NCBI RefSeq assembly: GCF_001895925.1
Contig: NZ_MPPI01000002.1
Coordinates: 46,524-91,796, forward strand
Reading direction: 5' to 3'
Length of the DNA stretch: 45,273 nt
Source: Phormidesmis priestleyi ULC007
GTDB taxonomy: Bacteria; Cyanobacteriota; Cyanobacteriia; Leptolyngbyales; Leptolyngbyaceae
This document shows positions 1,094-11,459 of the stretch, piece by piece. Numbering within the stretch: the first letter of the stretch is position 1; each line of letters starts with the position of its first letter. Below the pieces are notes generated by a model. That model was not told the origin of the DNA, did not search any database, and saw nothing but the letters and a program-made list of their open reading frames with translations. The position numbers and the translations under genes were made by a program.

Positions 1094-1216
1094 GAGGGAG
1101 GCTCCAGAGAATCGGTTGAGAATTGTAAAATCGTAACTAAATCTTAACAAAAGCTGGCTCGATCGAACGGGATTTGGTTAGGCGGATTTCATCAATTTGT
1201 GATCCTCTAATCAGAA

Positions 1217-1262
1217 ATCGTGGATTGTTTGCAGGGGCAATGGACACGGCAGTGCCATGTCC
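1217..1262. repeat. Dispersed hairpin repeat, copy 1 (variant with compensatory change)
   Basis: The core at 1242-1262 has arms GGACACGGCA and TGCCATGTCC around a single G. Relative to the other four copies, both the third base and its partner differ (G-C has become A-T), so the stem is kept. The left flank ATCGTGGATT at 1217-1226 matches the left end of the full-length copy at 29557-29638; the right end is absent. It lies downstream of the ATPase gene ending at 1291 and upstream of the ABC-F gene. Confidence 0.75.
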
Positions 1263-1290
1263 GTACGGAGGATTGGTTGGTTTATGGTTT

Positions 1291-2583
1291 TTAGAGGTCT
1301 GATTCTTCGGTGATCGCGAAGAAATCTGTCTGTTCTTGCAAGGAGGCTTCGAGCAAATCTGTCGCGCCTAGGTTGACGTTTTCGTGATAGAGATAGGCGA
1401 TATCCAACGCTTCTAAAGTTGCCCGGATGTGGGTGCGAATGGGTTGACTCCCGATCGCTCGAATCAAGTCAGAAACTTCTAGTTTGGCATTCCAAGCATA
1501 TGCCACGCCGTGAAGTTTGACCAAGCGATCGAGCAGTTGAATTAAGTTACCAGTTTCTAAGGGGCGAATGGTGGGACAGGTAGATCCGATCGCGGTTTCA
1601 AAAAAGTTTTGCATCACCTGCCCAGCATCGGCGCCAAATTTTTCGATCGCCAACTCAGGAATTTGACTGCGATCGTTTTTAGCGCTTGGTGTGCTGGTGC
1701 CACTAAACCAGACATCGTTTCGCAAACTGGAGGCGACAACCCCAAAGGTGTAGATCGGGTAGGGATTCTCACAGAATAATTCTTGATCCCCATCTCGACG
1801 CACGGGACGATCTGACCAGTTTAATAGCCAATTGAGGTTGCGATATGCCTGAAGCCGTCCGACTTTGCCCAGTCGTCCAATTAGCTCGACTTCATCCAGC
1901 AACAGCACCCAGCCTTTATAGCCACATAGGGCGATCGCGTCTGCCATCACGCCAAAATAAGCGCTTCCATGCTGCGTGGTGCGAAAGTTCATTTCAAATT
2001 TGGGCAGCGACTCGCCCCGGCAGTTGCGATGAATGCGCTTCAGTTCGGGGCTGGTAATCCGCGTTCCCATCAAATCGCCGTAAAGAAGATCTTGTTCTTC
2101 GCCAGACGTGAAAAAATAGTCTTCTAAAACGATTTCTGGGAGAGGATGACTGTAGCGATCGCGATCAGCCAGTGGGCTATTGAGCAAATCTCCTGCTTTT
2201 TTAGCGCTCAAAGCTTTAGTCAGTCCTGCCATTTTAGAATCAGGGGTACGAAGCACCGAGGCAACTCGTCCATAAAAGTTGAGCAGGTGATGACAAGACA
2301 CCTCGCGGCTGAGAGAAACTCGACTGACAGCAAATCCTAGATCCAGTGCGACGTGTTCAACAGTGGTCAGAGCATGAGTTTTGCCTTGCCCATAAGGGCC
2401 CCACGCTAGCCGTCCATCGGGGCGCTTACCCTGAGAGAACTGCTCTAAATCTTGCCGAATCAGGTCGGTCAGCGATTCTCGCAAATCGGGCAATTCTCTA
2501 GTTGAAGTGCGGGTGGGAATTCCAGCGCGGAGAGATTCGACAACGGCGATCGATTTTCTGCGATTAGCGTCATATCGTTCCAT
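1291..2583 (-). CDS. BrxC/BrxD-like (DUF2791-type) P-loop ATPase, third gene of ATPase trio
   Basis: A 430-residue soluble protein. Walker A is GPYGQGKT at residues 62-69 followed by H70, and Walker B is WVLLLDEVELIG near residue 226. The GKTH after the P-loop, the Walker B continuing into DEVE, and the C-terminal helical region resemble the family of BREX ATP-binding proteins BrxC/BrxD (DUF2791), which is also found in Shango systems. These proteins power multi-protein anti-phage complexes, but a role here is inference. The start is supported by GAGG nine bases upstream of the ATG at 2583. It lies 38 bases after the preceding ATPase gene on the same strand, so the two are probably cotranscribed. 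No helicase, PglZ phosphatase, methyltransferase or TerB protein of the known systems is adjacent. Confidence 0.75.
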   Translation of the reverse strand: MERYDANRRKSIAVVESLRAGIPTRTSTRELPDLRESLTDLIRQDLEQFSQGKRPDGRLAWGPYGQGKTHALTTVEHVALDLGFAVSRVSLSREVSCHHLLNFYGRVASVLRTPDSKMAGLTKALSAKKAGDLLNSPLADRDRYSHPLPEIVLEDYFFTSGEEQDLLYGDLMGTRITSPELKRIHRNCRGESLPKFEMNFRTTQHGSAYFGVMADAIALCGYKGWVLLLDEVELIGRLGKVGRLQAYRNLNWLLNWSDRPVRRDGDQELFCENPYPIYTFGVVASSLRNDVWFSGTSTPSAKNDRSQIPELAIEKFGADAGQVMQNFFETAIGSTCPTIRPLETGNLIQLLDRLVKLHGVAYAWNAKLEVSDLIRAIGSQPIRTHIRATLEALDIAYLYHENVNLGATDLLEASLQEQTDFFAITEESDL

Positions 2584-2620
2584 TGCATCTACCTCAAAGA
2601 TTTTGAATTTTGGACTCGGT

Positions 2621-3802
2621 TCATCCGTCGCTGAGTGCCATTAAAGTTGCACCAATTACGCTGGCTCGAAGTTGACTTTGTTCATCTAAAGTGGGGAGAT
2701 CGCGATCGACCACCTGAAATCCCGCTTCTTGAAATAATCGCCGCAGTCTCATCTGCACCTGTTCGGGAAAGCTTTTGCCGTTAGCCACCAGATGACTGTC
2801 GATGTCTACAATGTCTGACAGGGGATTAAATTTGTCGATCGGCAGCAAGCCAGTTTGTAATCGCATCCACAGTGCCTCGTAGCTTTTAAAGCCCCGACGA
2901 TCGTCTTCAATCATTTCGCGCCGACCTGCCAGCAGCAGCAGAAAATGATCGAGCAGTTCTACATCATCAATGATTTGGCGGAACAGTTCGCAGGTGTCTT
3001 TGATGGCGTTGGCAGTGTATCGGAAGCGGCGAGTTTCAGGATGGCGTTCGGTCATGACTTCTAGATCGTCGATCGCGACCACTAGCCCAGTCATTCCTGC
3101 CAGATGCAGCAGCCGAATCAAGGAGTTTAACCAGTATCGAGCGTTCGGTTTTTGCAGCCGTTCATAGAGTAGGGTAGATTGCTTTTGGTAGCGCTCTAGT
3201 TTCTCGCCAGACAGCCACTTCAACGCGAGTCGGATGCTGTCTTCGTTGCCACTGATCAGCCGATTGTTGATCACACCGTAAGCAAATGCCCGAAACGACG
3301 ACCCAAAATCAACATCTCTGAGCGTCAACCCGATCGCTTTTTTGATCTCATGCACTGCCAAATCACGGGTCAGTCCTTGATCTTCAATCAGCAGAGACAG
3401 AATTCGATCGCTGTCGTCATATTGCCCATAGCCCAGTTTTTTGGTGACGAGTTGACACAGCCCACTCACCAAGCGCTCTTTGTCGAGTTGTTGAACGATC
3501 GCCCGATAAAACCCTGTCAAATCATTCAAGCGATATTCTCGTGCTGAGAGATAAACGGTTTGGTAATCTCTAGCTTGGGCATCTTGCAGCCCACAGCGCA
3601 AGAGATGAGTTTTTCCCGTTCCTACACCGCCCACCAAAACTTTGACTTTGCTGCCGCCATCGGCAATGTAGTTGGTTAGATAGTGTTTGTGCAGATAGTC
3701 GAGCCAGCGATCGCGCCCCAGCGTCATCCCGATCAGAAGTTCCTGGCTCACCGGAGGCTGACCCGACAGCAATGCCTCGATATCCAGTTCGTCAATCTGC
3801 AT
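2621..3802 (-). CDS. P-loop ATPase, BrxC/BrxD-like, second gene of ATPase trio
   Basis: A 393-residue soluble protein with Walker A GGVGTGKT at residues 58-65, again followed by H, and Walker B GLVVAIDDLEVM about residues 235-246. A sensor-like stretch LLLLAGRREMI follows. It shares the P-loop style and length class of the next gene (1291-2583) but is clearly diverged from it, so the two probably form an unequal ATPase pair rather than a recent duplication. The start ATG at 3802 has GAGG six bases upstream and follows the preceding gene's stop codon by nine bases, which indicates tight coupling. Family assignment to the BREX-type ATPases is from motif resemblance only; a general AAA/STAND ATPase is the alternative. 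Confidence 0.72.
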   Translation of the reverse strand: MQIDELDIEALLSGQPPVSQELLIGMTLGRDRWLDYLHKHYLTNYIADGGSKVKVLVGGVGTGKTHLLRCGLQDAQARDYQTVYLSAREYRLNDLTGFYRAIVQQLDKERLVSGLCQLVTKKLGYGQYDDSDRILSLLIEDQGLTRDLAVHEIKKAIGLTLRDVDFGSSFRAFAYGVINNRLISGNEDSIRLALKWLSGEKLERYQKQSTLLYERLQKPNARYWLNSLIRLLHLAGMTGLVVAIDDLEVMTERHPETRRFRYTANAIKDTCELFRQIIDDVELLDHFLLLLAGRREMIEDDRRGFKSYEALWMRLQTGLLPIDKFNPLSDIVDIDSHLVANGKSFPEQVQMRLRRLFQEAGFQVVDRDLPTLDEQSQLRASVIGATLMALSDG

Positions 3803-3811
3803 GGGTAGCCT

Positions 3812-4717
3812 CTATCCCTCTTCAACTAGATGAATTGCCAAGGTGCTGACTCGACTTTCTTGCCCCTGACTGTTGACGAGCAAAAAACTACTTGACTGGT
3901 TACGAGAGGGTTCTAGCGCAAACTGATAGCGATCGTAGCGAATTTCAGTCTGTTCTTTTAGCCGCGCCAAATCGTAGGTAAACAGCGGCTCAGGATAATC
4001 TTGTTTGGTGGATTGCTTCAGCGTCAAGAGGCGATAAATGTCTTTGAGCGGCACAGACTGCCCCCAAACGACCTCCTCTTTTTGCAGCATCAGCCGATTC
4101 AACATTTCATAAGTGCTGAGTAGCTCTCGACAAAAGCGCAAAGCATCGAACTTGCTGTCAATCACCCGCCGATATTGTCCCTCGACCCAGGGTGCTAACT
4201 GTTCAGGTGCAAACGCTTTGATCTGCTGCGATCGTCGCCCCATGCTCAACCGCACCACGCCTTGCTCACGACTAAACGTCAGCTTAAAGGGGGGAAACTC
4301 GTAGTTAGGAAACTCACCTCTGACTGGAATTCCAACAGCTTTGAGAGCATTCTCTAACTCGGTTGGGTAATCATTAGACGAGACAAAATCTTGATCGGCT
4401 TGCAGCGCCTCGCGAATCACAGTTTGTTGTTCGAGCCAGCGATCGCTCAGTTTGCCGAGTTCTTCTGTCAACACCTCTAGCGTTTGAGTCGAGGTTTTAA
4501 AATCCCATTCTTTACGAGATTTCTTGACCGCCGCCCACACTTTGATCAGGCGTTTTAAAGCGGTGTCAATCTCGCTTAAAGCAACTTTTTCTGATGCACT
4601 GTCCGACGATTCCATAACTTGAGACAGGTAGAAAATTGAATTCTCCTCATCGTATCTCACAGGTGGACTGCTAGAACTACTGGACAATACTAAAAGACCC
4701 GGTTGCACTAACCACAT
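3812..4717 (-). CDS. Unknown helical/coiled-coil protein, first gene of ATPase trio
   Basis: About 301 residues, not recognised. The N-terminal third is a low-complexity serine run followed by charged helices (for example ALKRLIKVWAAVKKSRKEW). The middle holds a basic, strand-like stretch with PPFKLTFSREQGVVRLSMGRRS, and the C-terminal part is again helical and then strand-rich. There is no signal peptide and no metal or nucleotide site. The start is uncertain: ATG at 4717 is used here, but TTG at 4738 and ATG at 4615 are possible and none has a good ribosome site. It sits nine bases before the first ATPase gene, so it is likely the partner or adaptor subunit of that pair. It begins 70 bases after the cytochrome gene on the same strand. 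Confidence 0.7.
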   Translation of the reverse strand: MWLVQPGLLVLSSSSSSPPVRYDEENSIFYLSQVMESSDSASEKVALSEIDTALKRLIKVWAAVKKSRKEWDFKTSTQTLEVLTEELGKLSDRWLEQQTVIREALQADQDFVSSNDYPTELENALKAVGIPVRGEFPNYEFPPFKLTFSREQGVVRLSMGRRSQQIKAFAPEQLAPWVEGQYRRVIDSKFDALRFCRELLSTYEMLNRLMLQKEEVVWGQSVPLKDIYRLLTLKQSTKQDYPEPLFTYDLARLKEQTEIRYDRYQFALEPSRNQSSSFLLVNSQGQESRVSTLAIHLVEEG

Positions 4718-4786
4718 CAGAGTGACTGATTGAGTCAAAAGAGGACTAGCGGCGGGTGAACCGGGTGGGTTGGTGACGGCTTGACC

Positions 4787-6826
4787 CTAAAAGCTTCCTG
4801 GGTTGTCGTCAAGTGCCATCAAGAAATTGACGAGATCGTTTTGCTGAGAGGTCGAGAACCCGGCTGACGAATCGACATAGAATTCATGACCTGTGCCATC
4901 AAGATTGCTTAACTGGAGAGCCGGATTCGCTTGGTTAGTAGCAATGACTTGGGCACGGAGGGTGCGATCGAGCAGTGCCCGCAAACTATCTGCTGCATCT
5001 GCCGGAATCGCCCGACTGAGCGTGCCTGAGAGTCCCAATCCCGTAGGGTCAGCAATCCCAAAACTGCCATCTGCTCCAACTTGTAGCGCCCCTTTACGAA
5101 CGGCAACTCCGCCATCATGTAGGTAGGGTGCCGTCAGGTAGAGTCCTCGAAGCGACGGCGTTTTGTAGCCACCGTCTGGAAGCAACCCTTTGGGCAGCGT
5201 AGTCGGCGTGTCAGAAATTCCCGCGGTTGGCACGTCGATGACTTCGGCATTGCCTGAAATCGGCACCGAGGTATTCAACGTGTAGATTTTGGGCGGAACG
5301 AGCAACTCATTTTGGGCAAGGCGCGACTCAGCGCGGGCGCGATTGGTTTTGATCTCAGCGATCGGGTGAATCTTGTTATCCGTAAAATATGGTGCTTTAT
5401 GGCAGGCAAGACACTGGGCTTGTTCAAAAACTTGGGCACCGCGATCGACCGAGCCGCTCTGCAAAGCTTGCTGATTTTGAAGCGTTTGGTTAGGAGGCGG
5501 CACCAAACTGTTTTGCCATGCAGCCATCGCATTTGCCGCAAACAAGAACGGACCACTGGCAATATCTAACTTATATGTATTGGGACTGAAAATCAGACCG
5601 TTGTAAGTAAACAGCGATAGTTTGAGATTGGGATAGCTCCCCACACCCGGAGCCGCAATCTGATCTTCAAGTTCGGCTTTCGCGGGGTCTGGCGCTACCT
5701 TTCTCAGCCAATCGGAGGGCTTAACAGGCGAACCTTCGGGCAACCGAATTTTGGGGTCAGCCGCATTTTGCAGAACAGTGCCTAGGTAGACTTCGCGATC
5801 GAGTCCCAGGGTTTCTGCACTTCTTTGCGCCGCCGCCAGCAAATTAATCTCGGACGAGTGAACGCCATTATTAACGGAACTCAGCCCCCCAAATGGCCCC
5901 ACCGCAAACTCTCCGCCCGACGTATAGGGACCCGACTGGAAGGTAAACACCGTCGGAATTTGAGTCGTATTATCAATGCCGTCAGGCGAACTCTCAAAGT
6001 GACCATAAGGAACTGCCAACACCGCATTATCAAACGCCTGTTCAAACTTTTGGGGATCGGGAAGCTTCACAAGCTGACCTGCACTGTCAAGGATGGTCTT
6101 ACCATTGCCCTGATACTGTGGGTCAAGCGGATTGAACTTCAGACGGGCAAACCCGGCGGCTGAGTTGGGAGCCAGCGCGATTAATAAAGGAATACCAAGA
6201 TCGCCGTTAGGAACTCCCTTGAGGCGATCGCCTTTGGGTGAAAGTGCTACATGACACACTGCACAGGTTAGGTTGCCGTCCAGTTTGAGTCCGATCGGCA
6301 ACACTCCCCCGCGAGGCACGTCTAGCCCAGTACTAACGGTGGTTCCTTTGGGAAAAGTTTGACTTCCTAGCGTAATGTTCTTCTGAAGCACAATTTTTAG
6401 ATTGCTGGTGGGTTGTCCTCCTAACTTGAGAATCGCCACGGTAAATTCTGGCAAAACTTTGGCGATGCCTTGCCCAAAACCAAACACTTTCTGCAAACCA
6501 AAACTATCGCCAATTTTGCGATCGAGAAAGATTTTCTCTCCTCTATCGATGAGTGGTTGAGTGATTTTTACCGCCCCAATTCGAGCATAAGAGGTTGAAC
6601 TGTTGGGGTTCAGCCCTTTTTCGCGAACCAGATTAGCCGCTTCTTGAGCCGTCAACGATCGCCCAAAATAATCATAGGAACCGATTGGCTGAATTGGCGC
6701 AGGGGCAAGCAACGGTGAAGTGGCGATCGAGGCACTTGGCTTCATCAAAAGGTTGGATAACAGAAGCGCCAAAAAGCTGACCAAAAGGCTAAGGAAAAAG
6801 AGAAAAATTGTCCGACGATGACGCAT
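4787..6826 (-). CDS. Di-haem cytochrome c peroxidase-like protein, membrane anchored
   Basis: A 679-residue protein that starts with a positively charged stretch and a hydrophobic segment (residues 7-28), either a signal anchor or an uncleaved signal, placing it on the periplasmic or lumenal side. Two haem c sites are seen: CAVCH at 188-192 and CLACH at 472-476. Near the end, GGYKTPSLRGLYLTAPYLHDGG is typical of the second haem domain of bacterial cytochrome c peroxidase/MauG relatives. It is longer than classical CcpA enzymes (about 330 residues), with a large insert between the haems. Strong AGGAG precedes the ATG at 6826. The substrate is unknown; peroxide reduction or an electron-transfer role are both possible. 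A direct repeat upstream (6846-6891) may regulate it. Confidence 0.8.
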   Translation of the reverse strand: MRHRRTIFLFFLSLLVSFLALLLSNLLMKPSASIATSPLLAPAPIQPIGSYDYFGRSLTAQEAANLVREKGLNPNSSTSYARIGAVKITQPLIDRGEKIFLDRKIGDSFGLQKVFGFGQGIAKVLPEFTVAILKLGGQPTSNLKIVLQKNITLGSQTFPKGTTVSTGLDVPRGGVLPIGLKLDGNLTCAVCHVALSPKGDRLKGVPNGDLGIPLLIALAPNSAAGFARLKFNPLDPQYQGNGKTILDSAGQLVKLPDPQKFEQAFDNAVLAVPYGHFESSPDGIDNTTQIPTVFTFQSGPYTSGGEFAVGPFGGLSSVNNGVHSSEINLLAAAQRSAETLGLDREVYLGTVLQNAADPKIRLPEGSPVKPSDWLRKVAPDPAKAELEDQIAAPGVGSYPNLKLSLFTYNGLIFSPNTYKLDIASGPFLFAANAMAAWQNSLVPPPNQTLQNQQALQSGSVDRGAQVFEQAQCLACHKAPYFTDNKIHPIAEIKTNRARAESRLAQNELLVPPKIYTLNTSVPISGNAEVIDVPTAGISDTPTTLPKGLLPDGGYKTPSLRGLYLTAPYLHDGGVAVRKGALQVGADGSFGIADPTGLGLSGTLSRAIPADAADSLRALLDRTLRAQVIATNQANPALQLSNLDGTGHEFYVDSSAGFSTSQQNDLVNFLMALDDNPGSF

Positions 6827-7418
6827 AAGGTTCTCCTACTCAAATTTGATTCAACGGTTCGCAAAAGCTGACCTCTCGTTGATTCAACGGTGCCTCATTC
6901 AAAGAATTGCCAATTGAATGCTTTTGCGTCTGTGAATTTTATTTTTAAGATTTGTAAAACTTACTTCGAGCGAATTCTAAGTAGATGCCTGCTGCGATCG
7001 CTCACCCTATAAAAATGTTGCGATCTCTCTCCGAGTCTTTTAGAGACAAGTCTTTTAGAGCATTATCGAGATCATGACTAGGCGAAAGGTTGCACCCGTT
7101 TTACAGTTCTTCTTTGCCAAATGACTATGCAGTATTACTCAGCTTGAGAGGGCTGTAATAACCTTCTTGTTCAATATTCTCTACGTAAATCCGTCTGATA
7201 TTTATAAAGTTTTAATTCTGACAAATTTATTGAGAAATAGTCTCAGCTAATAGAAGAAACCTTCTCAAGCCAGGAACCATTATTCATATTCCTTAACACA
7301 AGTTATTCACGGGAGAAGACATTGCTACTTTAATAATAGATAAACAGATGTCTGAAGTGCTGACTATATCTCACTGCGCCTTTGTTTGAACGAGTTATTT
7401 CTTCATGAGAATTCTTTT
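6827..7418. other. Gene-free AT-rich intergenic region
   Basis: About 590 bases between the divergent cytochrome gene and the small secreted-protein gene. No convincing open frame or RNA gene is seen. It contains the direct repeat TTGATTCAACGGT at 6846-6858 and 6879-6891, and a tandem-like pair GTCTTTTAGAG at about 7035-7060. It is presumably a divergent promoter region. Confidence 0.5.
6846..6891. promoter_or_regulatory. 13-bp direct repeat upstream of cytochrome gene
   Basis: TTGATTCAACGGT occurs at 6846-6858 and again at 6879-6891, a period of 33 bases or about three helical turns, 20-65 bases upstream of the cytochrome start codon. Equal spacing on one face of the helix fits a regulator binding as a pair of dimers, but no known box is recognised. 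TTGA(T)TCAA is itself partly palindromic. Confidence 0.35.
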
Positions 7419-7859
7419 ATGAAACTTACGATCGCTCTCATCGCAGCATTTTGTTTCTTCCTGCTATCTATCCCTGCTGTTTTGGCTCAAGAAGCTGATT
7501 ACCCCTGTTACTTTCAAAGTTCAAATCACGGAATTGTCGATCTTTCTAAATTGTGTGGTCAGTCTGTTTCCCCGCCCTTATCTTCAGATGCGGCATTTTT
7601 GAGCAGCTTTCAGAAGTTGGCAAGCGGATATCCAACACCAGTGAGCCAAGCGCTAAATCAGTACATTGGGCAAAATCAAGCAAGCGCGATCGCCGCCGCC
7701 AAAAGCACTTGTCGAGTCATCAAGTTGAGAGGCGCTTCTGCCCAAGAAACCCGCAAAAGAGCGCTGATGTCCTACGATGCTGCTCCCAGTGCCCAAGCCA
7801 AACAGCAGATCACCTCAAGCTTGGCAGTGACCCACTATTGCCCCGAATTGGGAGGATAG
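7419..7859 (+). CDS. Small secreted protein of unknown function
   Basis: 146 residues from the ATG at 7419, with a clear signal peptide: MKLT, then a hydrophobic core, ending at VLAQ-EA around residue 22-24. An upstream TTG (7386) would add 11 residues in front of the signal and is less likely. The mature protein has cysteines at CYF, LCG, TCR and near the end (HYCPEL), probably oxidised in the periplasm. The C-terminal half is alanine-rich helix. The ending loosely resembles DUF732 proteins, but that is a weak impression. It stands alone, facing the DUF952 gene tail to tail. Confidence 0.7.
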   Translation: MKLTIALIAAFCFFLLSIPAVLAQEADYPCYFQSSNHGIVDLSKLCGQSVSPPLSSDAAFLSSFQKLASGYPTPVSQALNQYIGQNQASAIAAAKSTCRVIKLRGASAQETRKRALMSYDAAPSAQAKQQITSSLAVTHYCPELGG

Positions 7860-7893
7860 CTTTAAGCACGGTCTCGCCTCACGCTGCTTTGAC

Positions 7894-8235
7894 TCAAACC
7901 TTCATTTCTGGCAGTTCAAACAGCCCATTTTTTCCGGGTGCAAAATTCAGAATGTCTACCACTGCATCCAGGTTCAGCACGCCATAAAGGTGAGGAAATT
8001 GTTCGCCGTTTTCAATCGTTTCGTATTTAATTTCGGCTTGAACTCTAGCAGCATCAATGCACAACAGCACCAGCGAGGGTTGGGCGCGGTAGAACGAATC
8101 TGCCACCCAAACGACTTGTTCACGTCTGGAGCAGTGAATAAAGCCTTCAGATTCTAAGGAATCACAGCGGTAAAACCCTTGCTGCTGCGCCTGTTGCCAC
8201 TGGTCTTTGTGCGTGATGTGGAAAATTAGACTCAT
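7894..8235 (-). CDS. DUF952 family protein
   Basis: 113 residues, soluble. It starts SLIFHITHKDQW and contains GFIHCSRREQV and KYETIENGEQFPHLYGVLNLDAV. These are the conserved blocks of DUF952, a small family of unknown biochemical function, widespread in bacteria, with a fold related to ADP-ribosylation-type enzymes. The length is normal for the family. The start at 8235 is the only in-frame ATG before the conserved N-terminus. It is followed by no same-strand gene and probably has its own promoter. Confidence 0.85.
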   Translation of the reverse strand: MSLIFHITHKDQWQQAQQQGFYRCDSLESEGFIHCSRREQVVWVADSFYRAQPSLVLLCIDAARVQAEIKYETIENGEQFPHLYGVLNLDAVVDILNFAPGKNGLFELPEMKV

Positions 8236-8297
8236 GGCGACGATGAGAGGGGTTTTCTACTGATTACAGCTAATTAACTTCGCTTAGATTCCTGTTT

Positions 8298-8327
8298 GTG
8301 AGAGAAAGGGTCTGGGACCCCTCTCAC
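8298..8327. repeat. Inverted repeat downstream of VOC gene
   Basis: GTGAGA and GGGTC on the left pair with GACCC and TCTCAC on the right, with a small bulge on each side and a three-base loop. It begins 14 bases after the VOC stop codon, so it could stabilise or end that transcript. There is no U-tract on the minus strand, so it is not a typical intrinsic terminator. Confidence 0.45.
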
Positions 8328-8340
8328 TTCATCAAAAAAT

Positions 8341-8799
8341 TCATTCAGCATTGCAGCGAATTTCAATCAAAAAACCATCCGGGTCATAGAAGTAAATGCC
8401 TCTGCCCGTCGGACGGCTAACCGGGCCGTGATCGATGAGAATCTGATTTTGCTGAAGGACTTCAACCGCCTGATCAAAAAACTGAGGCGCAATATCAAAG
8501 GCGAGATGATTGGCACGAGTAAACTGCTGCTTCGGGTCAGCATTAGGCGGAGACAAATCGGGTTCCCAAAACAAATCGAGAATCGTGTCATCAGGCGTTC
8601 TAAAGTTTGCCACTTTTCCGGCGGCGACTTCTGCTTTCAAGGTTTCGGGCACCTCCGCCCCAGTCAACTCATAAAGTCCCAAAATTTTGCCGTAGAAGTG
8701 ACGTGACCTTTGCATCTCTTTCACATTAATTGCAAAGTGATGAACACGACGCAAATAACCTAACGGTAAAGCCGTAGTAACAGGAGAACTGGAGATCAT
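8341..8799 (-). CDS. VOC family (glyoxalase/dioxygenase fold) protein
   Basis: 152 residues in a single vicinal-oxygen-chelate unit: LRRVHHFAINVKEMQRSRHFYGKILGLYEL at the start, NHLAFDIAPQFFDQAV in the middle, and GRGIYFYDPDGFLIEIRCN at the end. Metal ligands are likely H20 or H21, the H of NHLAFD and the final E of FLIEIR. Members include glyoxalase I, dioxygenases and antibiotic-binding proteins; the substrate cannot be told. Start ATG at 8799. Neighbouring genes give no pathway clue. Confidence 0.85.
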   Translation of the reverse strand: MISSSPVTTALPLGYLRRVHHFAINVKEMQRSRHFYGKILGLYELTGAEVPETLKAEVAAGKVANFRTPDDTILDLFWEPDLSPPNADPKQQFTRANHLAFDIAPQFFDQAVEVLQQNQILIDHGPVSRPTGRGIYFYDPDGFLIEIRCNAE

Positions 8800-8853
8800 A
8801 AAAGTTTTAACGCTAATTACTTTCTTTTTTAGCGCGAGATGTGGATAACCTTA

Positions 8854-10014
8854 TCACTTTTCTAAAATTGCTTTCAGACCTTGCACTAATCGTCCGATGC
8901 CGACGATCGCCGTTTCTTTCGGCAAAGCCCCATACGCAACTCGCAAATAACAGCCTGACTCTAAGCCAAACGTCGAACCTGGAAGGGTGGCAACGCCATG
9001 TTCACGAATTAAACGTTCTACCAGTTCCATTGAGGTTAAATCAGTGTGGACTTTGATTAGAAAATAAAACGCACCCTTTGCAGGAGGAACGGTACAAAGA
9101 TCAGGAATCCGATCGAGTTCTTGCAAGACAATCTCACGCACTTGAGCGATCGCGGCTAACTTCTCTCGACAAAATTCTGCCCCAGCTTCCAACGCTCCCA
9201 GTGCGGCATATTGCGAGATTACGGGAGGACAAATGACGATCGTGTCTTGAATTTTTCTCACCGATTCTGATAAATGTTTGGGCAAAACCATGTAGCCAAT
9301 GCGCCAACTGGCAAACCCATAAGCTTTTGAAAGGGTGTAAATCGAAATCGTGTGCTTGCCGCTATCAGGAATCGACCCCGGCGAAAAGTGAGCAGCCCCA
9401 TAAGTGAAGGATTCATAAGCTTCATCGCTGATGTGATAGAGATTGTGCGATCGACAAATCTCATTCACCTCGCGCAAAGCCGCCTCTGAGTAAACCGCCC
9501 CCGTCGGATTGTTAGGCGAAACTGTCACGATCGCACGAGTCTTAGCTGTAATTGCTTGGCGAATCGCATCAGGCTGAAGCTGATAAGTTTCATCAGTCGG
9601 CACCAAAACTGCCCGACCGCTTGCCATGACGATCGCCATCTCGTGATTGAAGTAATAGGGCGTTTGCAGAATGATTTCATCGCCCGGATCGGTGATGGCC
9701 AGAACGGCATTCATAAATGCCATATTGCTTCCGGCGGTGACGACAATTCGGCTGTAGGGATCAAGATTAATTTGGTTTTCAGTGGCCAGTTTGTGAGCGA
9801 TCGCGCTTTGCAATTCTGCAATTCCCTCGACAGCTTGATAAGCGTGATTGGTAGACTGACTCAAAAATTGAGTAATTTGCGCGATCGCCTGCGGTGGCGG
9901 TGAGTAACCAACGATCCCCTGTCCGAGAGAAATGGTACCGGGGCAACTACGTATCAATGCTCCCACCACTGGGATGATCGGTAGCTGGACGGCTTGCATA
10001 CGAAAAGCATTCAT
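8854..10014 (-). CDS. PLP-dependent class I/II aminotransferase
   Basis: 386 residues with the fold-type I aminotransferase pattern: ISLGQGIVGYSPPP near the N-terminus, NAYQ-type substrate loop (NHAYQAVEGIAEL), TAGSNMAF, SPNNPTGAVYS, SDEAYESF, and the PLP-lysine motif SIYTLSKAYGFASWRIGY with K in LSKAYG. A final arginine for the substrate carboxylate is in GCYLRVAYG. It belongs with the aspartate/aromatic aminotransferase group; the exact amino acid cannot be assigned. Start ATG 10014. It is divergent from the RlpA gene across about 220 bases that look like an ordinary promoter region. Confidence 0.88.
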   Translation of the reverse strand: MNAFRMQAVQLPIIPVVGALIRSCPGTISLGQGIVGYSPPPQAIAQITQFLSQSTNHAYQAVEGIAELQSAIAHKLATENQINLDPYSRIVVTAGSNMAFMNAVLAITDPGDEIILQTPYYFNHEMAIVMASGRAVLVPTDETYQLQPDAIRQAITAKTRAIVTVSPNNPTGAVYSEAALREVNEICRSHNLYHISDEAYESFTYGAAHFSPGSIPDSGKHTISIYTLSKAYGFASWRIGYMVLPKHLSESVRKIQDTIVICPPVISQYAALGALEAGAEFCREKLAAIAQVREIVLQELDRIPDLCTVPPAKGAFYFLIKVHTDLTSMELVERLIREHGVATLPGSTFGLESGCYLRVAYGALPKETAIVGIGRLVQGLKAILEK

Positions 10015-10235
10015 CAGTTTTGCAATTTGAACTCATTTCAACCCTCATCTTAGGGCTGAAATTTGATACCAAAAAATTTGTGCTTAAAGTCTAAAACTTA
10101 AAGATTAAAATCGGGGATCAAACATTCTAACCAGGAAAAACTACTTTACTTAGGATAGATATTTTTGCTTTACAAAAACTTTATACTGTTGCACAGTCAA
10201 TTGTATCTACTACTACAAATCAGATCTAAATACTC

Positions 10236-11459
10236 ATGTCAATTTTTGGACTTGTTTGGGTAGCCTCCTGGTTTGGCTCCTTTTCGTCGCTGACAGAAAA
10301 AGTGTTAGAAGCGCCTCGATACCTGTCACACGTTTTCTTCAGCCAGCAATCTTTGACCCCTGACGATTCCTCTAACGAATCTAAACTTGTGTCTCAAAGT
10401 ATTACGTCGTCTTCGATTGAGAGACTGAATTCAAGGTTTAGCTTGATCAGCGATCGCGTCAGCCAACCCACATCAACCACTGTTTGGTTAGGCGCGATCG
10501 AAACGCTTTTGTTGACTCCTGCCTTTCAGCCAACGAACTACTCTCTAGCGTTGAGTCATTCTGATGGTTATTCCATTGCTCTCAACGAAACCACGGCTAG
10601 TCAACCCCACGGGAACCCCCTCAATTATTTGTTAGGAGTGGTGCAAAGCTTTTTCTGGGCAGTTCCGCCTGGCATCGCAGCGACCGATTTTGCAAATCCG
10701 ATTCCTGCTGTGGTGGTGATTCAGTCAAGTAACAACTCGGTAAGCCAGATCAATTATTGGAGATGTGCCGCTTGGCAAGAACGCCCCCCATCGCAGTCTG
10801 CATTGGGGGTTTTTCAGATCTGGGTGAAGGGATGTTTGGTGGCAGAAATCACGGATCAATCCACTGCTGACAAAGTTGCAGAGAGTCTAACCCGTTTGCT
10901 AGAGAATCCTGATCTGGATGCGTCGCAACTGACTCCTGCTTTTGAGCAAGATATGCCGATCGTTAAACTCGGCGATTGCGTGGTGTTGAGGTTTGATCGC
11001 GACCTTGCAGATCAGTTCGATCGTCCTGTTGAGCTAGTGGCAATTGATTGGGTTAACAATTTGCGAATCGCTTTGGGGCAACAACCCATTTCGATGGCAG
11101 ATGCTCAAGTGAAAATGCACAGTTTGCAAGATACTGGCAGCAGCATTGGTGGACTCGCCTCCTGGTATGGCCCTTATTTTCACGGGCGACAAACGGCAAC
11201 GGGTGAGATTTTTGACCAAAACGAGTTGACAGCCGCCCATCCTTCTCTTCCGTTCGGGACTTTTCTAAAAGTGACCAACTTACTCAACGGACAGAGTGTC
11301 GTCGTGCGAGTCAACGATCGCGGCCCTTATTTTGACAATCGCATTTTAGACCTATCTAACCGAGCAGCTCACTGTATTGGCAGTGAAGATAAAGGGGTCG
11401 TGCCGATCGAGGCCGAAATTATGCTGCCGACAACGAGTCAGGAAGTCGCAAGACTCTAA
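10236..11459 (+). CDS. rlpA: RlpA-like protein with C-terminal double-psi beta-barrel
   Basis: 407 residues. The C-terminal domain (about 305-395) has GLASWYGPYFHGRQTATGE, LPFGTFLKVTN and VVVRVNDRGPY, the conserved blocks of RlpA, a lytic transglycosylase-type domain acting on septal peptidoglycan. The first 15 residues are hydrophobic but a standard signal peptide is not obvious. Residues 50-300 form a long region without recognised motifs, as in other cyanobacterial RlpA proteins. Its last four bases overlap the tail of the convergent Crp/Fnr gene (11456-11459). Confidence 0.88.
   Translation: MSIFGLVWVASWFGSFSSLTEKVLEAPRYLSHVFFSQQSLTPDDSSNESKLVSQSITSSSIERLNSRFSLISDRVSQPTSTTVWLGAIETLLLTPAFQPTNYSLALSHSDGYSIALNETTASQPHGNPLNYLLGVVQSFFWAVPPGIAATDFANPIPAVVVIQSSNNSVSQINYWRCAAWQERPPSQSALGVFQIWVKGCLVAEITDQSTADKVAESLTRLLENPDLDASQLTPAFEQDMPIVKLGDCVVLRFDRDLADQFDRPVELVAIDWVNNLRIALGQQPISMADAQVKMHSLQDTGSSIGGLASWYGPYFHGRQTATGEIFDQNELTAAHPSLPFGTFLKVTNLLNGQSVVVRVNDRGPYFDNRILDLSNRAAHCIGSEDKGVVPIEAEIMLPTTSQEVARL

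Follow-up and report, generated by a model that had tools for sequence, protein, structure and literature searches.

A conserved three-gene cassette with two unequal BrxC/BrxD-family ATPases: a candidate loader for exchangeable DNA motors

The DNA analyzed here, referred to as the window, is a stretch of 45,273 nucleotides (nt) from Phormidesmis priestleyi ULC007 (contig NZ_MPPI01000002.1, positions 46,524 to 91,796, forward strand). Its minus strand carries a cassette of three genes, which encode a protein that we call g1 (3812 to 4615) and two ATPases of the BrxC/BrxD family, A1 (2621 to 3802) and A2 (1291 to 2583). We found these genes to form one conserved module in several bacterial phyla, with two ATPases that appear unequal in their catalytic residues. 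With modest confidence, we propose that a heteropair of A1 and A2, resembling the origin recognition complex (ORC), acts together with g1 to load or trigger interchangeable DNA motors against foreign DNA.

Three linked genes form one module

A1 and A2 are neighbors in all 59 distinct loci compared, and 57 of them also have g1; in the two exceptions, L069 and L084, the contig ends just upstream of or inside A1. Since A1 and A2 adjoin in every one of these loci, the linkage of the three genes is not a matter of chance, and their status as one conserved module is well supported. The absence of g1 from most homologous loci, an outcome considered in an initial annotation of the window, is not what we found.

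The 59 loci were reached with g1, A2, or the Pfam family PF10923 as the query. They comprise 11 from a survey of the cyanobacterial phylum plus sets of 29, 13, 5, and 1, after removal of duplicates (L066, identical to L017; L067, identical to L018; and three Firmicutes repeats), and they represent Cyanobacteria, Firmicutes, Atribacteria, Coprothermobacterota, Cloacimonadota, and unplaced bacteria. In the cyanobacterial phylum, g1 found 10 positive genomes out of 292, and PF10923 found both ATPases side by side in the same ten genomes and in G177, where a weak g1 match (16 bits) stands in the correct place. A scan of a species-genome collection with patterns from the A2 alignment yielded 31 loci, with A1 adjoining A2 in 31/31 and g1 present in 29/31; because the scan detects a genome only if it contains either of two exact peptide patterns, the figure of 31 carries no information on prevalence. 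A g1 profile matched 17 of 348 genomes in the phylum of Sporomusa, and once two weak partial matches (G362 and G374) had been dropped, 15 genomes were left with 16 loci, all of which have A1 and A2 and 13 of which were new. Of 124 genomes in the phylum to which a Cloacimonadota genome belongs, 8 matched and gave five new loci, all with both ATPases, and one further locus was obtained via G785 (2 of 14 genomes match).

Damaged copies were counted as well. In L023 (5450 to 7849, genome G091) an inserted open reading frame (ORF) interrupts A2, and the helicase seen in L024 was not found nearby; in L075 (6644 to 8517) g1 is disrupted close to its end by an insertion containing an ORF that looks transposase-like by eye; and in L077 A2 lies in two frames. 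The last of these is a Thermosyntropha cassette (3901 to 10509), followed on the same strand by a gene that appears HSP70-like by eye and by genes for large proteins.

The two ATPases are asymmetric in sequence

Residue counts over 57 aligned loci, in which smaller denominators give the number of sequences having the site, provide strong support for an asymmetry between the two ATPases at the level of sequence. A2 (430 amino acids [aa]) retains the P-loop lysine in 57/57 sequences and the Asp-Glu of Walker B in 54/54; in the window its catalytic residues are complete, with Walker A reading GPYGQGKT (residues 62 to 69; 2377 to 2400) and Walker B reading VLLLDE (residues 226 to 231; 1891 to 1908), both on the minus strand. 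The glutamate of Walker B in A1, in contrast, is present in all 7 sequences of a deep clade versus only 2 of 44 in the main clade, where the site is otherwise occupied by aspartate (32 sequences), asparagine (6), or glutamine (4). The A1 of the window (393 aa) belongs to the kind with a P-loop (GGVGTGKT, residues 58 to 65; 3608 to 3631, minus strand) and Asp246 in place of the glutamate. Six of the 56 A1s that cover the P-loop have lost it altogether (L089, L139, L141, L142, L144, and L145). Besides its missing P-loop, the A1 of L089 (9778 to 10728), from the cyanobacterium G177, is also devoid of the Walker B aspartate.

Arg314 of A1 (2861 to 2863, minus strand) is arginine in 57/57 sequences, including all six without a P-loop. 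It lies within the motif SYxALWxRLQ, at what we take to be the position of AAA+ arginine fingers. Because A2 keeps its catalytic residues, A1 degenerates, and Arg314 is invariant, the simplest reading of these alignments is that A1 completes the ATP site of A2, with Arg314 as a candidate arginine finger acting in trans. The six natural A1s without a P-loop would already separate ATP binding from this role.

Both ATPases belong to PF10923, and A2 has a predicted ORC/Cdc6-type fold

A P-loop and a GKTH motif are found in both proteins, and both exceed the cutoff of Pfam PF10923 (BrxC_BrxD; 22.2 bits), with 86.3 bits for A1 and 64.8 bits for A2, which bears out the initial assignment as two BrxC/BrxD-like P-loop ATPases; membership in an unrelated housekeeping AAA family, also raised at that stage, did not materialize. 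Neither reaches the cutoff of the BrxD subfamily NF033438 in NCBIfam (350 bits; 69.4 bits for A1 and 44.5 bits for A2), and with the PADLOC model of SngB they score 44.4 and 38.3 bits, respectively, compared with 573 bits for the SngB encoded in the same genome. In a FastTree phylogeny of 118 rows, A1, A2, and SngB each occupy one side of a branch, with local support of 86, 91, and 100%, respectively. On account of this separation, the A1-A2 pair looks ancient and coinherited, with the caution that long branches leave the deep joins unsure, both here and in a concatenated tree of 57 rows.

Remote similarity points toward initiator-type ATPases. By sequence, an A1 profile matched DnaA at 3.5e-5, and an A2 profile matched the initiator/loader class weakly (DnaI, 0.11). 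The single-chain model of A2 has a predicted local distance difference test score (pLDDT) of 86, and among the 1000 chains compared its best solved match was ORC2 of A. pernix (Z of 16.3, root mean square deviation of 3.4, 263 aligned), followed by other Cdc6/Orc1 proteins and then by TnsC (Z of 13.9); MuB reached a Z of 12.6. A Foldseek search with A2 was weak on its own (best E value of 0.0017, to Drosophila ORC, with ClpX close behind). The alignments of A2 to ORC proteins mostly end before the C-terminal part of the target, the site where a winged helix is in question, and residues 407 to 430 of A2 fall below a pLDDT of 50. Taken as a model, A2 is an AAA+ protein of the predicted ORC/Cdc6-type fold.

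The presence of TnsC and MuB among the structural neighbors of A2 raises the idea of a transposon-targeting ATPase pair of their kind. We consider this very improbable, as ORC/Cdc6 proteins rank above both and we noticed no transposase recurring beside the cassette, the transposase-like ORF of L075 being the one seen.

The model of g1 has a helical hairpin and a possibly winged-helix-like end

In the ORF list, g1 extends from 3812 to 4738 and opens at a TTG (4738). An ATG at 4615 is common to its relatives, and since these align from there, it is most likely the true start, giving a protein of 267 aa rather than one starting near 4717, as first assumed. The window copy and five relatives gave no Pfam match above the curated cutoff; examined with seven relatives in each case, the window copy also gave none above cutoff in NCBIfam and no match in PADLOC, so that the protein is as unrecognized as initially described. 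A distant relation to BrxA, BrxB, or TerB may exist.

The earlier description of g1 as helical covers only part of its model (pLDDT of 90.6). Helices 2 to 35 and 39 to 79 form a hairpin, which fits that description; residues 99 to 132 form a beta part, and the C-terminal part consists of helices 158 to 177, 190 to 201, and 209 to 220 and strands 225 to 227 and 230 to 235. The element order of residues 158 to 235 (3911 to 4144, minus strand), helix-strand-helix-helix-strand-strand in the DSSP string, suggests a winged-helix-like arrangement in the model. VIA-align rows for g1 were filled mostly by the helical hairpin (Z below 10), an arrangement that helical models can commonly share.

DNA motors, cas operons, and BREX genes beside the cassette

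A DNA motor or a type I cas operon stands alongside the cassette in 25 of the 59 loci. A BrxHI/SngC-like helicase lies downstream in six loci (L024 and L154 to L158; in L155 with one or two intervening ORFs), and BrxL adjoins in five (L081 to L084 in a short form, L135 at full length). SNF2 helicases are found downstream in two loci, L144 and L145, past a shared 190-aa gene, and in divergent orientation in five (L062, from Sporomusa acidovorans, L071, L072, L073, and L080; small ORFs lie between in L073); four loci (L136, L137, L138, and L140) have a divergent ResIII/XPB-like helicase. The 190-aa proteins encoded between A2 and the SNF2 helicase (L144, 12399 to 12980; L145, 12358 to 12918) are similar by eye, and that of L144 matched nothing in Pfam, PADLOC, or NCBIfam. 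The remaining three are type I cas operons (L139, L141, and L142), each accompanied by an A1 without a P-loop. In the type I-D locus L139 the cassette is flanked by cas3d and cas1, a single small ORF separating it from each, and an array of 38 repeat copies is present; in L141 (type I-B) it follows cas3 and precedes cas1 beyond small ORFs; and in L142 (type I-A) it follows cas5 and one small ORF, with cas3 further up. With 3/59 loci, this is not the regular presence in cas loci that would mark a type I CRISPR-Cas accessory.

When motor labels were placed on the tree of 57 concatenated rows, 10 changes were needed when "none" counted as a state and 5 when it did not, the latter being the fewest possible for six labels; because this minimum is reached, the motors appear to go with clades. 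Motors were found within two genes of the cassette in 22/144 cases versus 5/321 further away, which serves as a guide only, since the query motors were picked from these very loci and relatedness was left uncorrected; owing to their intervening ORFs, L073, L142, and L155 were scored as further away. Neighboring genes are longest-ORF calls and are rough in the GC-rich loci L017, L018, L021, and L164. The Pbe system was considered as a home for the cassette and rejected: the helicase of L136 matches PbeA, but the cassette proteins of that locus match no Pbe model.

One cassette, that of L133, has a divergent neighbor, an operon encoding BrxC, PglXI, an SNF2-like helicase, and PglZ, which is very probably a complete bacteriophage exclusion (BREX) locus. 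The arrangement of a helix-turn-helix (HTH) gene and a cassette facing this operon can be followed in L133 (9961 to 18941) and L166 (3 to 8479); in L060 and L063, too, g1 is preceded by an HTH gene, and BrxC had no match there. Another cassette, L021, is near a DruE-like helicase. In the flanks fetched for the 59 loci (889 kb), PglZ (four queries) and TerB had no match, and BrxC and PglXI had none outside L133, the PglZ of which stands further along, beyond those flanks. Homologs regularly accompanied by every part of a BREX or Shango system, an outcome that the initial annotation had also contemplated, were not seen, L133 being the one locus that faces a BREX operon. The annotation's notion of a minimal ATPase pair with a dedicated partner holds as to pair and partner; "minimal" fits the clade of the window, but not the 25 loci with a motor or cas operon alongside.

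The cassette and candidate motors in the window genome

The three genes are tightly spaced on the minus strand (ORFs 3812 to 4738, 2621 to 3802, and 1291 to 2583), as first reported, with 9 bases between g1 and A1; the gap between A1 and A2 is 37 bases and not 38. Among nine window proteins (the cassette and six neighbors), Pfam matched no PglZ, methyltransferase, Lon-like, or TerB protein, in agreement with the initial annotation. The gene immediately upstream of g1 (4787 to 6826), also on the minus strand, has weak di-heme cytochrome or MauG-like matches in Pfam and NCBIfam, and no relative of this gene was found beside the other cassettes compared; the gene downstream of the cassette reads by eye as an ABC-F ATPase. 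A promoter and terminator scan of 1100 to 4900 gave site numbers no higher than those in shuffles.

In the same genome, SngB (573 bits) and SngC (825 bits) are encoded on contig C40 and the cassette on contig C39. Within L014 (2896 to 7863, on C40), SngB and SngC are about 1.3 kb apart, with an opposite-strand ORF between them. In the cyanobacterial phylum, SngB-like ATPases reaching full-length PF10923 scores are common. The genome has two SNF2-DUF3670 genes, and neither PglZ nor BrxL was found in it; across the 38 cassette genomes, PglZ was not found in 25 at an E value of ≤0.001. Two candidates for an obligatory motor in trans were rejected: SNF2-DUF3670, prompted by five Firmicutes loci, since the cassette occurs without it in G085, G241, and G177, and SngC, since 16 of 38 cassette genomes have none at an E value of ≤1e-30.

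Proposed mechanism and alternative explanations

How might such a cassette work? We propose that A1, A2, and g1 form one complex, in which the two ATPases, of the ORC/Cdc6 type according to the fold predicted for A2, would pair asymmetrically: A2 would bind and hydrolyze ATP, and A1, otherwise demoted, would donate Arg314 as the arginine finger in trans. With its coiled-coil hairpin and winged-helix-like end, g1 may provide the contact to DNA or to a partner that ORC/Cdc6 proteins hold in their own C-terminal domain. The complex would then recognize foreign or abnormal DNA by one of its features and load or activate a DNA motor, which in turn would do the damage. This motor would be interchangeable, being a BrxH/SngC-like helicase, BrxL, an SNF2 helicase, or an XPB-like helicase depending on the lineage and Cas3 in the three CRISPR loci, and for the clade of the window its gene would lie elsewhere in the genome. 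The proposed loading role is thus joined to a role in defense that is suggested by the neighboring genes. It is tempting to speculate further, and more tentatively, that one ancient heteromeric ORC/Cdc6-like loader with its own DNA-contact subunit targets many defense effectors (BrxL, SF2 helicases, and Cas3) to DNA.

Several observations weigh against a loader of defense motors. No motor is linked to the cassette in 34 of 59 loci (several on short contigs), among them 18 of 19 from the cyanobacterial phylum, and no candidate in trans is constant: SngC-like genes (E value of ≤1e-30) occur in 22 of 38 cassette genomes and BrxL in 13 of 38, and SNF2-DUF3670, present in 263 of 292 genomes of the phylum, is absent from the three cassette-bearing genomes named above. 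Unlike a mobile defense island, the cassette keeps its chromosomal site among genomes closely related to that of the window, and A2 gave no match in plasmid or phage searches. Moreover, the winged helix of g1 is without any supporting fold match, Foldseek having returned nothing for g1 at an E value of ≤0.001.

The shared chromosomal site and the lack of plasmid or phage matches could instead mean that the ORC-like pair and g1 serve a nondefense chromosome system, acting in DNA repair, replication restart, or segregation via housekeeping helicases; SNF2 and XPB-like helicases are, by name, not specific to defense. This alternative seems doubtful but deserves serious attention. It sits poorly with the patchy spread of the cassette (10/292, 17/348 with the two weak matches included, and 8/124 genomes), with its place inside or next to cas loci of types I-A, I-B, and I-D in three genomes, and with the BREX operon beside L133, the DruE-like helicase near L021, and the BrxL or BrxH-like genes at 11 loci. 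Alternatively, the cassette of the window might be self-sufficient, A2-A1-g1 acting on DNA as a roadblock or filament with no motor at all, as the window clade has no linked motor and those genomes show no constant candidate elsewhere. Given the motors alongside relatives from several other clades, we regard this as unlikely. Finally, the initial annotation had allowed for a remnant, which would be a BREX or Shango locus stripped of its other genes. Both ATPases do fall into PF10923, and the operon facing L133 looks like a complete BREX set, but this reading can be dismissed as the least probable explanation, since the same three neighbors recur across 59 loci, A1 and A2 are each a lineage apart from SngB, the flanks match BrxC at 1/59 loci and PglZ and TerB at none, the window genome holds a separate, high-scoring SngB and SngC, and no BREX or Shango operon containing all three genes was seen.

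Comparison with known systems

The initial annotation had called the unit perhaps unreported, and we found no description of it in the literature searched (titles and the starts of abstracts, with subscription papers and preprints mostly outside coverage); as far as searched, the three-gene module is undescribed. The main text of PMC12839542 makes no mention of Shango, Cyanobacteria, a paralog, or a three-gene or two-AAA arrangement.

TnsC and MuB are structural neighbors of A2, but transposition genes were not noticed as regular neighbors of the cassette. In archaeal and eukaryotic ORC, a partner supplies the arginine for a single complete ATP site, which is the arrangement that we propose for A1 and A2. 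The cassette differs from ORC-Cdc6/MCM in having the separate g1 beside its ATPases, and we know of no role for it in replication. Further likenesses are the predicted fold of A2 and the presence at some loci of BrxL, which PMC12839542 describes as an MCM-family ATPase. Shango (SngA, a TerB protein; SngB, an ATPase; and SngC, a helicase) shares the Pfam family of A1 and A2 through SngB, and the BrxH-like fourth gene of six cassette loci also resembles SngC. Against this stand the low SngB scores of A1 and A2 and the lack of a TerB match in the cassette flanks; instead of SngC and a TerB-domain SngA in one locus, the window genome has the cassette on C39, SngC only on C40, and TerB_C only on C46. 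Likewise, PglZ and BrxC accompanying the ATPase, as in BREX, are not what the cassette loci contain, BrxC being found at L133 only and there in the divergent operon.

Also close in logic is the BrxD-BrxHI pair of type 2 BREX, a dyad noted in PMC12839542, where BrxD is classed as an ORC-Cdc6 AAA+ ATPase and its loading of BrxHI is a suggestion. Like BrxD, the cassette ATPases belong to PF10923, with the ORC/Cdc6-type fold predicted for A2; a BrxHI/SngC-like helicase follows in six cassette loci, and the same loader-helicase logic is proposed. Unlike it, the cassette has two unequal ATPases and g1, scores far below the BrxD cutoff of 350 bits, and has no PglZ match in its flanks. BrxD-BrxHI and, by likeness, SngB-SngC hint that defense reuses the replication logic by which an initiator ATPase loads a motor, in the case of BrxD on the strength of the suggestion in PMC12839542. 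The cassette would be a compact and widespread three-gene version of it, with an asymmetric initiator pair and an adjoining motor that varies by clade, and its three small proteins make the loader idea directly testable. Its occurrence at three type I cas loci raises the question of whether such a loader is used in CRISPR interference or spacer uptake. Altogether, we see the cassette as a variant among ATPase systems of the BrxD/SngB kind, one that most likely works like an ORC-type loader for exchangeable motors in defense.

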